The notes beneath the pieces were generated by a model. That model was not told where the DNA came from and ran no database searches. It saw only the letters and a list, made by a program, of their open reading frames with translations. The position numbers were made by a program, and so were the translations under genes. Of a stretch of DNA of 21,032 nt, positions 10,579 to 14,960 are shown in pieces (position 1 is the stretch's first letter; each line of letters begins with the position of its first letter). The DNA is from a virus. The stretch covers positions 1-21,032 of the IMG/VR virus record IMGVR_UViG_3300033553_000093; one strand, 5' to 3'.

Positions 10579-11148
10579 ATGGACTACAAAAAAATTCTTA
10601 AGAAATATTGGTGGGTTGTTGCGCTTCTCATCATGGCAGGAATCGGTAAGATTGTCGAAAAAAAACAAGTCCCCGTTAGAGACTGGAATGGTGAAGCAAC
10701 TGAATTGATCGCAAAACTACGAGATCCATCAAGCATTGAGGCGTTGCAACATGACTATATTGTTGCAGATTCGCTTTATGCCGAAATGAAGCTTTTGCCA
10801 GATTCATTGCAAAACAAATACATTTCGCAAATGATGGAACTTGAGGCAATGACTACACTGAAAGATCAAAATATTGTTAGTGAAGGACGTCGGTTGAAGA
10901 TCAAAAATCAATTCAGTTCGTACGATGGCCATAATATGTATCTTGAGCGCGCAATCAAACAATCAATGAATGATCCTGACTCTTATGAGCATATAGAAAC
11001 AACGTATAAAACGGCTGGTGATTCAATGATCGTTTATTCGAAATTTCGCGGTAAAAACCCATTCAATGCCCTTGTTGTCTCAGATGCAAAAGCACTGATG
11101 AATCTTGACGGATCTATATTGAGCTTTGCAATGCCGTTCACACAGTAA
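10579..11148 (+). CDS. Membrane-anchored hypothetical protein, 189 aa
   Basis: N-terminus KKILKKYWWVVALLIMAGIG is a signal anchor. After it comes an acidic helical stretch (residues 40-90) and a C-terminal domain of about 75 residues: LERAIKQSMNDPDSYEHIE, IVYSKFRGKNPFNALVV and LMNLDGSIL. That pattern of a NDPxSxEHxET motif followed by a FRGKNxF strand occurs in small secreted or membrane-bound proteins of many bacteria, with no known function. It is the last gene of the plus accessory block and is followed by the third hairpin element. Envelope location suggests lysogenic conversion or exclusion, but this is inference. Confidence 0.55.
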   Translation: MDYKKILKKYWWVVALLIMAGIGKIVEKKQVPVRDWNGEATELIAKLRDPSSIEALQHDYIVADSLYAEMKLLPDSLQNKYISQMMELEAMTTLKDQNIVSEGRRLKIKNQFSSYDGHNMYLERAIKQSMNDPDSYEHIETTYKTAGDSMIVYSKFRGKNPFNALVVSDAKALMNLDGSILSFAMPFTQ

Positions 11149-11150
11149 AA

Positions 11151-11176
11151 GGCTGGTGTTTTCGCCAGTAAGTTTT
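11151..11176 (+). repeat. Post-gene hairpin element, copy 3
   Basis: GGCTGG-TGTTTTCG-CCAG followed by TAAGTTTT, two bases after the stop of the membrane-anchored gene. It shares GTAAAA in front with copy 2. Its last four T (11173-11176) are the start of the bidirectional terminator arm. Confidence 0.75.
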
Positions 11177-11221
11177 AAATAAAAAAAGCCCCGCTATTGA
11201 CGGGGCTTTTTTTATTTAAAA
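11173..11221. terminator. Bidirectional intrinsic terminator between convergent units
   Basis: Arms 11173-11193 and 11201-11221 are perfectly complementary over 21 bases, with a GCCCCG / CGGGGC core (11188-11193 and 11201-11206), seven-base loop CTATTGA and A and T runs on either side. It can terminate both the plus accessory block and the minus packaging operon. The stop codon of the gp37-like gene (TTA at 11216-11218 on the plus strand) lies inside the right arm. Confidence 0.9.
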
Positions 11222-11685: not shown

Positions 11686-12276
11686 TTAAATGGTGTTAAA
11701 TATGCGTTTAAGTTCCTTTTCAACATTCCTTAAAACAGCCCTATTAAGTATAGGGCTGGGGCTTGATGGTGTCGGTGCAAACTGCCGCCGTGGAATATTT
11801 ATGTTGAGATATGTCTTTTTTGTCAATGCCAGACCGCGCCATTTGCCCGCCTTGCGACCAACTTCAATACTTTGATACTCCGCTCCGCCTTTTGTCTTTT
11901 TGATGCCTTTGCCCGATTCTTTGTAATACATAGCCCATGCAAACTTTCGCATCTTGTCCGTGACAGGGATTGTCAGGTCTCCGCCTTCGTTGTGGATGTC
12001 TGCATACGGTTCAGTATTTCGGATCGTAGCCATTCCCGGAGACGTGATGTAGAACGTTGCAGATCGGAGATGCCCCGTCTGTACCAATGTAGTTCCACCG
12101 CGCTTGTTCTTTGCCCACGGCTTGAAAGATGAGCCCTGCCATCCTTGCGCCTTGAAATTACCATTGATGAAACGTATCGCAGTATTACCCGCCTCCGCAG
12201 GAAATCGAGTCACAACGTACGCCTCAAGTTCTTTTGCTTTCTGCTTTATGAGATTGTCAAATTGTTCGGGTGTCAT
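11686..12276 (-). CDS. gpG-like virion morphogenesis protein
   Basis: The start is ATG 12276 (MTPEQFDNLIKQKAKE), with a candidate upstream start at 12351 rejected because its 25 extra residues look non-coding. The 196-residue product has the features of the Mu gpG / phage virion morphogenesis family: AIRFINGNFKAQGWQG, W-A-KNKRGGTTLVQTGHLR, YADIHNEGG and a basic C-terminus with RRQF. In Mu, gpG works in tail-head completion. It lies 114 bases downstream of the MuF stop, an unusually wide gap in this operon, which holds an antisense-oriented hairpin. Confidence 0.75.
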   Translation of the reverse strand: MTPEQFDNLIKQKAKELEAYVVTRFPAEAGNTAIRFINGNFKAQGWQGSSFKPWAKNKRGGTTLVQTGHLRSATFYITSPGMATIRNTEPYADIHNEGGDLTIPVTDKMRKFAWAMYYKESGKGIKKTKGGAEYQSIEVGRKAGKWRGLALTKKTYLNINIPRRQFAPTPSSPSPILNRAVLRNVEKELKRIFNTI

Positions 12277-12363
12277 AACTTTTTTTGTTGAATGTTCGTA
12301 TATTCGTTTATCCCGGTGCGTAGCTCCATAAACCCGAACGGACGCATTCAATAGGATACCTTG

Positions 12364-12386
12364 AGGCTGTAATTATATTACAGCCT
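12364..12386 (+). terminator. Plus-strand-oriented hairpin terminator, antisense in the minus operon
   Basis: AGGCTGTAAT (12364-12373) and ATTACAGCCT (12377-12386) are perfect 10-base arms with a three-base loop, followed on the plus strand by TTTTTTT then ATTTT. On the minus strand, where all neighbouring genes run, the hairpin has no T run behind it. It would thus stop transcription going against the operon, or merely shape the mRNA end after MuF. Confidence 0.6.
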
Positions 12387-12390
12387 TTTT

Positions 12391-13584
12391 TTATTTTCTG
12401 AATTTCAAAATGCCAGACCGTACCTGTCCAACTCTGTTTTTCTCAAGATCATACATACTTTCAGCTGTCAGCTTATTGTTGACTGCAATAGTTACTGTTT
12501 TGTCATTGTAGAATTTAACGTAAAAAGACATAGTTCCATCATCCCATATTTCATCTGGCTGCTTTATTATGGTGTCGAATTCAGACGCATAGCTAGATCT
12601 GTTTTCTTTTTTGAATATATGGTCCTTGAAGTATAAGTTTGATCTTCCATTTTTCGTAGTCTCCCAGCTATCAAACAGCACCTTTTGCCCCAGCGGATCG
12701 GTTAATACTATGTCATCACCGCTATGTTTTGGCATGCCAGCCCACTTCTGATAATACTGTTCTTTTGTTGATTCTTGCAAAGATGGTGTCTTAGGTGATA
12801 GACGAATCTTTTCTTCACTACGCAGGCCATATTCTTTCCAAGAAAGATTTGATATACTGCCTTTGGTATTGACAAAATATGGATGTCTGCCATCAAACAC
12901 CGCTTGCGTCTTACCGACATTCTTTGCAAAATACTCTGGAACATCAACACTTTTTGCAAAATCAAAACCTGCATCTGAATTGTCATTTTTAGCAATACCG
13001 GGAATAACGGTACACCTACAGTTCCAATCTAATGGAGGATAGTACTTGTTCCAAAATCCGTGATCTTTCGGGTATGTTTTACCGTTCAATATCCTATGAT
13101 CATCACGTACTCGGTTATCACCTACTGTGCTGTATTCCAGATGTTCAGCATCAAGCGTCTGCCATCGGTGCGCCATTATCGCGCTTGTTTTGGCGGTGTC
13201 GTACTCTGTACGCAGATATGTATCATTGAACCGTTTTCCCATTTCAACGACATTGCGCCTAAATAGGTAGAACGGCAACATCGCGCCCGTCTCTTTGTCA
13301 AGCATCGCGGTTCTGAACTGTTGAAGCTCGGTCAATGATTTGGCAGCCGAAAACAGATATATATTGCGCATGAGTGATGAACGCAACACATTGCGGGTGT
13401 CATCGTAGTTGAACGACTCACCACCAAGACCGCCATTTATAGCATCCAACAGTGTGTTTGCCGTCTTGAAATAAAGATCTTGGTGTATGTCGCCATCTGC
13501 TAATTTCGCTGAAAGCATTGTTCTTGCTATGTCATCATAGATTGAATCAAGTGCGACACTGTCAATGCTTCCAAGATCGTGCAA
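12391..13584 (-). CDS. MuF (gp30-like) head morphogenesis protein with C-terminal nuclease-like extension
   Basis: The MuF domain is near residues 60-195: YLRTEYDTAKTSAIMAHRW, TVGDNRVRDDHRILNG and YYPPLDWNCRCTVIPG, the standard signature. MuF proteins act in capsid assembly next to the portal and are often fused to effector domains. Residues about 275-397 form a second domain (LYFKDHIFKKENRSS, FDTIIKQPDEIW, FYVKFYNDKTVTIAV) that resembles phage MuF-attached BECR-type (barnase/EndoU/colicin E5-D/RelE fold) nuclease domains. The only canonical start in frame is TTG 13584, with GGAGG seven bases before it. The reading frame continues 24 codons or more upstream without ATG (see the slippery site). 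No immunity gene follows. Confidence 0.8.
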   Translation of the reverse strand: MHDLGSIDSVALDSIYDDIARTMLSAKLADGDIHQDLYFKTANTLLDAINGGLGGESFNYDDTRNVLRSSLMRNIYLFSAAKSLTELQQFRTAMLDKETGAMLPFYLFRRNVVEMGKRFNDTYLRTEYDTAKTSAIMAHRWQTLDAEHLEYSTVGDNRVRDDHRILNGKTYPKDHGFWNKYYPPLDWNCRCTVIPGIAKNDNSDAGFDFAKSVDVPEYFAKNVGKTQAVFDGRHPYFVNTKGSISNLSWKEYGLRSEEKIRLSPKTPSLQESTKEQYYQKWAGMPKHSGDDIVLTDPLGQKVLFDSWETTKNGRSNLYFKDHIFKKENRSSYASEFDTIIKQPDEIWDDGTMSFYVKFYNDKTVTIAVNNKLTAESMYDLEKNRVGQVRSGILKFRK

Positions 13585-13637
13585 TGGTGTGCCTCCGCAT
13601 CCGCAACCGCACGATTGAGAATAAAGTTTGTCTAGGC

Positions 13638-14960
13638 TTATCGTTTCTTCATATCCAAAAAAAAATCTGCCATCTCTGCCAACAACCCTTTTTTCTTCAT
13701 TTTCAGCAATATCTCTTTTTCAGCCTCGTTATCCGTTTCGTCGGCTTCTGGCGTTTCGTTGCCTTTTGTCTTTTCGCGTTTCGATTCTTGTTTTTCGCGC
13801 TCTGCCTCAGCTTTCGATTTCAGTGCATCGTAATTGTCCGGCTTTGGTATGCCATACGTGAAGTACCAATAATCATCATCAATAGGCACTTTGGCAGAAA
13901 CGCGTTCATCAATAGCAAGTCGCTTGGTGAGTGTTTCAAGATCAAGTTCTTGTTCAAATTCAAACTTTCCATTCTCAACGGGGAAACCGTAGCTTTTCAG
14001 AATGAGCAAAAACTTCTTATCATTGAGCATGTTTTCAACAAACCTCAGATCACTTTTGGTGATTTCTAGTTGCTGATCTGAATGCGTCTCGCTCTGTGCG
14101 TAACCACTGCTTTTGCTTGATGTCGTGGTTTCTGTGTTTCCAAGAATAGCAACGGCCATTTCTTCATTGCATGCATCAATGAGCGTCTTTTGAAGCTTAC
14201 CGTCTCCGTTCGAAGTCTTACCGTCAAGCATCTGGAATTCGGCCTGCTTTGGGATCATCATTGCAAGTGACGAACCGCTTTCATCTAGTGTTTTTCGCAG
14301 TTCGTTTCTTGTAAGTGTGTCGTGTGCGTCGTAGTACATTATTCGCACGGGCTGTCCGAATATCTCAACGAATTGCGCGAAGTCTCCGAAACCGCTACGC
14401 TTGTAAAGCGCATACATAGCACACTGAAGCAAGCGTCCAAGTTCATACGGTTCACCTATTACCCAGACAAATGGCATATCTGTATAAGAGTCGCCAGTAC
14501 TATCGTATTGCGACTTGACAATCTCTTTTCGCTCCGGGCGGATGTGTTTGCGCGGTATCTCCGCAAAATCGAACTCTTTGCCAACAATGAACTCAACGCC
14601 CGACGTTCCCCACATCTTTTGTTCAATAAGCAACTCTACTAGACGGTTGAATTTGTTTGACCAAATAAGATCATCAAATGCATCAACTTTATGGCCTTCT
14701 TTGTCGATAAACTTGATCGCCTTGTTCGTCACTCCGCAGACACGTTTCAGCATCATTCCGCTTAGTTTGCCGTCTATCGTTACCACATCGTGATACAGGT
14801 CGTACAGCTGTGTCCGGCTGGCGTGATGAATGCTTTCGGCTCGCTCAATGGCAGATTTAAGTTTGCCGACATCCTTGCGCGAACGGTCGGGACTTACTAA
14901 TGTAAGATCGTGGATAACAGGTGTAGGGATGTCGCCCCCCTTTTTGATATTAGTTGCCAT
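13638..14960 (-). CDS. Portal protein, Mu gp29-like (DUF935)
   Basis: The 440-residue protein has the DUF935 layout. RTQLYDLYHDVVTIDGKLSG starts the stem-wing region, LIEQKMWGTSGVEFI and DFAEIPRKHIRPER follow, then VWVIGEPYELGRLLQCAMYALYKRSG and FVEIFGQPVRIM. Near residue 272 AILGNTETTTSSK leads to SETHSDQQLEI, the typical end of the family. The portal forms the dodecameric channel for DNA entry. The last 60 residues are very charged (Lys/Glu-rich) and finish at the T9 run. It abuts the gp36-like gene without a gap. Confidence 0.9.
   Translation of the reverse strand: MATNIKKGGDIPTPVIHDLTLVSPDRSRKDVGKLKSAIERAESIHHASRTQLYDLYHDVVTIDGKLSGMMLKRVCGVTNKAIKFIDKEGHKVDAFDDLIWSNKFNRLVELLIEQKMWGTSGVEFIVGKEFDFAEIPRKHIRPERKEIVKSQYDSTGDSYTDMPFVWVIGEPYELGRLLQCAMYALYKRSGFGDFAQFVEIFGQPVRIMYYDAHDTLTRNELRKTLDESGSSLAMMIPKQAEFQMLDGKTSNGDGKLQKTLIDACNEEMAVAILGNTETTTSSKSSGYAQSETHSDQQLEITKSDLRFVENMLNDKKFLLILKSYGFPVENGKFEFEQELDLETLTKRLAIDERVSAKVPIDDDYWYFTYGIPKPDNYDALKSKAEAEREKQESKREKTKGNETPEADETDNEAEKEILLKMKKKGLLAEMADFFLDMKKR
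13656..13662 (-). promoter_or_regulatory. Candidate -1 slippery heptamer at the portal/MuF junction
   Basis: On the minus strand a run of nine T then G ends the portal gene (13665-13656). In the portal frame it reads T TTT TTG, the X XXY YYZ form, eight codons short of nothing but five codons before the TAA. A -1 shift leads into the MuF frame, which is open across the junction and joins to the TTG-started MuF reading frame, giving a product of about 856 residues. Whether slippage really occurs is not known. Confidence 0.35.

Follow-up and report, generated by a model that had tools for sequence, protein, structure and literature searches.

The muF-gpG locus and its opposite-strand unit

The virus record IMGVR_UViG_3300033553_000093 of IMG/VR, analysed here over its whole length of 21,032 bases (the window), derives from a Mu-like transposable phage. 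Its muF gene encodes a minor capsid protein that ends in a domain of the PBECR2 family, and a gap of 114 nucleotides (nt) separates muF from gpG, the next gene of the operon. On the strand opposite muF, this gap holds a unit that is predicted from its sequence to be transcribed as a small-RNA gene, described here for the first time. The fusion of MuF to PBECR2 has been known since 2017; the RNA unit beside it is the new part. The locus comprises the following features, in which lengths of proteins are given in amino acids (aa) and ORF denotes an open reading frame.

12299-12306 (+): putative Bacteroidetes -7 promoter element TATATTCG, beside the gpG start, with one mismatch to TAnnTTTG
12311-12391 (+): predicted small structured RNA (~80 nt) in the muF-gpG gap, folding z -3.6
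12363-12387 (+): intrinsic-terminator hairpin of 11 pairs, with its T-tail over the muF stop codon
12397-12714 (-): PBECR2 domain (residues 291-396), modelled as a BECR fold in which His322 lies in the helix and Ser376 in strand 4 (Pfam, alignment, model)
12391-12873 (-): C-terminal extension, residues 238-397, missing in short MuFs of related phages
13003-13227 (-): MuF domain (PF04233), residues 120-194, E 7.9e-14 (Pfam)
12391-13584 (-): muF minor capsid gene, 397 aa from TTG (ORF list, profile search)
13638-14960 (-): Mu-type portal gene, upstream of muF (profile search)
11686-12276 (-): gpG/neck tail-completion gene, next in the operon, likely ATG start at 12276

The same order recurs opposite muF at PBECR2 loci, with a promoter element at the gpG start followed by a folded RNA and a hairpin whose U-tail overlies the muF stop codon. 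Nearly all relatives have this layout, and most loci show the terminator hairpin where muF stops. The gap spans 60-250 nt at PBECR2 loci, whereas behind MuF proteins that carry no extension gpG overlaps by 4 nt or follows immediately. The consensus TAnnTTTG is present opposite muF at 34 of 39 loci whose PBECR2 domain bears the catalytic histidine, compared with 3.4 expected from its density, and at 0 of these 39 loci when the muF strand of the gaps is read.

A search for an immunity ORF found no small ORF in the window gap and none common to the PBECR2 relatives examined. The initial annotation, which had been made from the sequence and its ORFs, likewise reported no immunity gene next to muF; this holds for proteins, but the RNA-type unit on the opposite strand had been missed. 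Rfam gave no gathering-level match in the window or in 25 loci (best chance match HrrF, 16.5 versus 77 bits), and in the literature searches no RNA partner of either MuF or PBECR came up.

Folding calculations gave the gap RNAs a mean z of -2.6, versus -0.1 for controls. In nine related loci (L010, L011, L021, L022, L024, L025, L055, L059, and L089; compared loci are cited by such numbers), the RNAs have in common an apical hairpin with the 7-nt loop CUAANCN, and the four-pair stem of this core hairpin varies in sequence while compensatory changes keep its pairing. The covariation score is 1.04, versus 0.285 in shuffles, on an alignment that was anchored on the loop and therefore favours adjacent pairing, and in which some of the nine rows are mutually related; none of 500 shuffles reaches this score, and sliding abolishes it. 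Among the compared loci, an RNA model with a 31-nt core (R1) picked up none but those on which it had been trained. When R1 was run against 320 genomes of one family, it matched beside PBECR2 in G001, G571, and G1217, all of which belong to the training loci or nearly duplicate one of them, and in the independent G1116. This reverse test is weak because 8 of the 12 R1 matches do not lie beside a PBECR2 match.

A predicted nuclease domain in an exchangeable C-terminus

The initial annotation had proposed that the MuF protein ends in a BECR-type nuclease module, and all three of the checks it suggested bear this out. The C-terminal segment scores 35.2 bits and the whole protein 32.0 bits against Pfam PBECR2 (PF18810), above the gathering cut-off of 27.1. 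The AlphaFold prediction of the C-terminal module is a confident, BECR-like model (predicted local distance difference test, pLDDT, 89.8) in which a helix is combined with antiparallel strands. When this model was compared with known structures by VIA-align, every one of the top 11 rows was a BECR-fold RNase (colicin D, CdiA-CT, BrnT, RelE, HigB), with Z declining from 5.7 to 2.9, and unrelated beta-propellers began at Z 2.9, behind these rows. Colicin D (1tfo_A) matches the model at Z 5.7, with 2.7 A over 77 residues and ~10% identity. The BECR folds were singled out solely by this second look and not by Foldseek, which returned no E below 1e-3 in the PDB or BFVD and by itself backed the BECR fold with no E below 0.09. 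The MuF signature had been seen to end near residue 195, in agreement with the PF04233 match, and the quoted motifs LYFKDHIFKK, FDTIIKQPDEIW, FYVKFYNDKTVTIAV, and GILKFRK are all present.

An alignment of 17 homologues contains seven invariant residues (P343, D344, E345, W347, K357, R389, and G391) and three near-invariant ones (D296, R329, and Y359), and His322 and Ser376 of the window protein occupy its active-site columns. In colicin D, the residues to be compared are Lys608, Lys610, His611, Ser677, and Trp679, and the K/R-x-His plus Ser/Thr-x-aromatic pattern of PBECR2 is presumably equivalent to this set. Most PBECR families have an active-site pair made up of a His in the N-terminal helix and a Ser/Thr in strand 4 (PMC5512222), and His611 of colicin D acts as a general base (PMC9990079). 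Near pairs of sequences indicate purifying selection on the module, with a ratio of nonsynonymous to synonymous changes (dN/dS) of about 0.04-0.05 in the two informative pairs. The best explanation for this domain is that it would function as a colicin-D-like, metal-independent RNase using His322, Ser376/Tyr378, and basic residues.

Other searches contributed little to this assignment. NCBIfam recognised only the MuF part of the protein, PADLOC gave no match, and sequence searches of the PDB yielded chance matches only. Viral scans that used the MuF protein of the window, or just its C-terminus, as the query returned no match, whereas portal queries and alignments succeeded. A tblastn search with PBECR2 domains also gave no match among named phages or plasmids.

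The module boundary was placed at residue ~238 (window position 12873) because extension-less MuF proteins of related phages end right after an HPYF motif. Thus, the added module that had been recognised at the C-terminus is separate and real, but it begins earlier than had been noted. The extension is 160 aa long and carries PBECR2, compared with the at least 100 aa that define toxin extensions of MuF polymorphic toxins. As had also been observed, the coding sequence of this end is AT-rich, with 38.1% GC for residues 264-397 versus 45.1% for residues 1-195, and six neighbouring genes contain no 134-codon stretch with a GC content as low as the former. The module is AT-rich both in the window phage and in most homologues with extensions.

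The C-termini of related MuF proteins show the toxin-like variation that a comparison of homologues had been expected to reveal. Where portals are 55-63% identical to that of the window phage (best segment), the MuF C-terminus can be missing or can consist of LPD3, a HEILH-containing domain, or a full or truncated PBECR2. At least eight changes of its type fall on a portal tree of 20 rows, and DNA similarity between phages breaks off at the module and returns in gpG. Other Mu-like phages have a different MuF or portal-MuF C-terminus (L020:4673-5185 and L018:4727-5224), which in L020 falls just below the Pfam CdiA_C cut-off (25.9 versus 26.6 bits). A solo, weak PBECR2-like ORF (L049:1396-1833) overlaps the end of a 238-aa ORF, which we take to be DUF3800-like, and the two are possibly a separate two-gene unit.

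Catalytic histidine, RNA unit, and gap content

The association between the catalytic His and the RNA unit was evaluated in a main set of 64 loci, some of which are near-duplicates of one another. The His is present in 48 domains, and a gap with the RNA unit was counted for all 48, at least 67 nt long where measured; this count includes L043, for which the next gene was not found. The remaining 16 domains have lost the His, and none of them is accompanied by the RNA unit, their gaps measuring -4 to 5 nt except in L087, whose gap is a simple repeat of 35 nt. The losses arose by deletion of the helix (L005, L015, L140, L143) or by replacement of His with Ile (L081, L082), Asn (L037, L074, L080, L144, L145, L150), or Phe (L083, L085, L087, L142), and most of the Asn and Phe cases have also exchanged Ser/Thr for Asp. 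Such paired substitutions occur in intact ORFs, which resemble pseudo-enzymes, in L037, L074, L080, L083, L085, L087, L142, L145, and L150.

Fisher's test of gap against His over the 64 loci gives p 2e-15, a value that is inflated by relatedness. The MuF tree contains four independent losses of the His, all four of which are concordant with loss of the RNA unit. Phage Mu, whose PBECR domain has been reported to be inactive (PMC5512222), agrees with a prediction made beforehand, in that gp30 and gene G overlap by 4 nt and leave no gap. A distant PBECR2 subfamily (alignment A7), which was collected afterwards, has a structured opposite-strand region in the gap at 16 of 16 loci examined, in several of which a sigma-70-like promoter (TTGACA) and a terminator-type end are seen, and it has the His in 13 of the 16.

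MuF proteins with other C-termini have different occupants in this slot. An opposite-strand protein ORF of 99 aa is found in the hankyphage L053 (L053:2043-2342), and one of 92 aa is found in L003 (L003:10745-11076), where the MuF C-terminus is the HEILH-containing domain; both are candidate immunity proteins. The hankyphage MuF C-terminus is presumably papain-like. Opposite-strand hairpin RNAs with TAnnTTTG follow two LPD3 MuF proteins (L007:10459-10540 and L008:3006-3090) and one MuF with an unassigned C-terminus (L002:7811-7920), so LPD3 may act on RNA too. Overall, the muF-gpG slot resembles a site for immunity or moron genes, with a content that would be matched to the kind of effector.

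The window as a whole encodes a MuA-type transposase and a MuB-type ATPase as well as terminases, a Mu-type portal, muF, and gpG/neck, and its nearest named relatives, only at low similarity, are Bacteroidota transposable phages, for example Winogradskyella phage Peternella_1 and the group of Bacteroides phage p00 (hankyphage). The muF frame is open upstream of the TTG (13585-13641, (-) strand) and encodes ISLDKLYSQSCGCGCGG there, in agreement with the Cys-rich N-terminal sequence (LYxxxCxC) that homologues conserve. The conserved upstream LYSQSCGCGCGG suggests that muF truly starts near 13641, and the start codon may be a rare ATA that overlaps the portal stop as ATAA. A 189-aa ORF (10579-11148, (+) strand) with a hydrophobic N-terminus separates the early genes from the late structural operon, and a terminator-like hairpin of 20 pairs (11174-11220) comes after it. 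This ORF is moron-like (phrog_3403) and has no homologue among the related loci compared.

Interpretation and comparison with known systems

The analysis shows the identity of the domain, its predicted fold, its conserved active-site residues, the modular swapping of MuF C-termini, the layout of the RNA unit, and the loss of this unit in concert with the catalytic His. The explanation favoured here is that MuF-PBECR2 would be carried in the phage head, injected with the DNA, and able to cut host RNA early in infection, with tRNA as the best-guess target because of the resemblance to colicin D. The opposite-strand RNA would be made from its own promoter in the lysogen, where it would bind and block the RNase and protect both lysogens and producing cells, giving an RNA immunity similar to that of a type III antitoxin. 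That the protein would serve as an injected RNase-like effector is very likely when this part is taken alone. Immunity through the RNA, which presumes its transcription and its inhibition of the enzyme, is given a probability of about 0.45-0.5. Extended tentatively to Mu-like phages of several bacterial groups, the proposal would be that active PBECR2 RNases delivered by the capsid are neutralised in the lysogen by dedicated opposite-strand gap RNAs, and that protein-targeting MuF effectors have protein immunity genes in the same slot.

Several observations weigh against this proposal. The -7 element of the window itself has one mismatch, and R1 misses the window RNA. The folding signal is owed mostly to the terminator hairpin, which is weak or missing in a few His-bearing loci (L029, L086, L096, L097), and the 5' part alone has a folding z of -0.27, no different from controls, although cutting there breaks the outer stem. 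With only four independent losses, the sign test (p 0.125) could not have reached significance. Furthermore, two A7 lineages (L107 and L113/L114) have Tyr in place of His and yet retain the RNA; they break a strict His-RNA rule unless Tyr can serve catalysis, as His-less related BECR enzymes hint. The RNA link is also not exclusive to PBECR2, given the RNA units behind the MuF proteins of L007, L008, and L002.

In one rival explanation, the effector would be an ordinary MuF-PBECR2 of the kind described in 2017 and the RNA a regulatory antisense only, one that silences late mRNA in the lysogen or adjusts gpG expression and leaves the RNase untouched. The RNA is complementary to the gap of the muF-gpG mRNA, its promoter lies at the gpG start, and LPD3 MuF proteins are likewise followed by RNA units. 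However, a regulator should not vanish precisely when the active site mutates but the domain stays, as has happened in L037, L074, L080, L083, L144, and others, and in L003 and the hankyphage L053, which have other C-terminus types, the slot holds an opposite-strand protein ORF instead, all of which makes regulation alone unlikely. The co-occurrence with the catalytic His would be predicted equally if the RNA were a positive partner of the active enzyme (a substrate, guide, activator, or packaging signal) rather than its inhibitor. This is improbable, as an opposite-strand promoter of its own fits transcription in the lysogen, in which the late capsid operon would presumably be silent, and such a pattern is what immunity would lead one to expect.

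Alternatively, PBECR2 might serve the head in a structural or RNA-binding capacity and take no part in attack, injection, or toxicity, as has been proposed for the inactive Mu gp30 domain. The maintenance of pseudo-enzymes (H to N/F, S/T to D) as intact ORFs and the retention of an inactive version by Mu (PMC5512222) fit such a role, but the window domain has a complete active-site set and related phages manage without the domain, leaving little room for this view. Most improbable is a classical polymorphic toxin with its immunity protein encoded at another site. The 189-aa ORF might be named for that function in view of its own terminator and hydrophobic N-terminus, but related PBECR2 loci that were compared have no homologue of it, and two structural genes lie in between.

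MuF-PBECR2 proteins have been predicted as injected RNases since 2017, and an RNA gene that tracks the catalytic His bears on how the producer survives and on whether the domain is active. If the proposal is true, RNA immunity, laid out unlike known type III toxin-antitoxin systems, would be added to phage-borne effectors, and the RNA could reveal the target of the enzyme if it mimics the substrate.

The closest precedents are the PBECR2 (PF18810) fusions to MuF or portal proteins (Iyer et al. 2017; PMC5512222), which share the domain family, the MuF fusion, the His and Ser/Thr site, and the predicted role as injected RNases. No RNA partner or immunity was described for those fusions, whereas here an opposite-strand RNA unit accompanies the versions that bear an active site. 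The MuF polymorphic toxins (Jamet et al. 2017; PMC5576092) and Bxa of a Bacteroides stercoris prophage (PMC11699363) likewise combine a MuF N-terminus with an exchangeable C-terminal effector in temperate phages, but they have small immunity protein genes downstream, none of which is present in any PBECR2 locus examined. The colicin D tRNase and CdiA-CT BECR toxins share the predicted fold and have a catalytic His within the helical part as well; their delivery as bacteriocins or by contact-dependent inhibition (CDI) and their protein immunity are unlike what is found for PBECR2 here. In type III toxin-antitoxin systems (ToxIN, CptIN, TenpIN), an endoribonuclease is held by a structured non-coding RNA, as is proposed here. 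However, type III RNAs are tandem repeats located upstream on the same strand and their toxins are ToxN-like, whereas the present system would pair a BECR enzyme within a capsid protein with a single downstream RNA on the opposite strand that has its own promoter and terminator.
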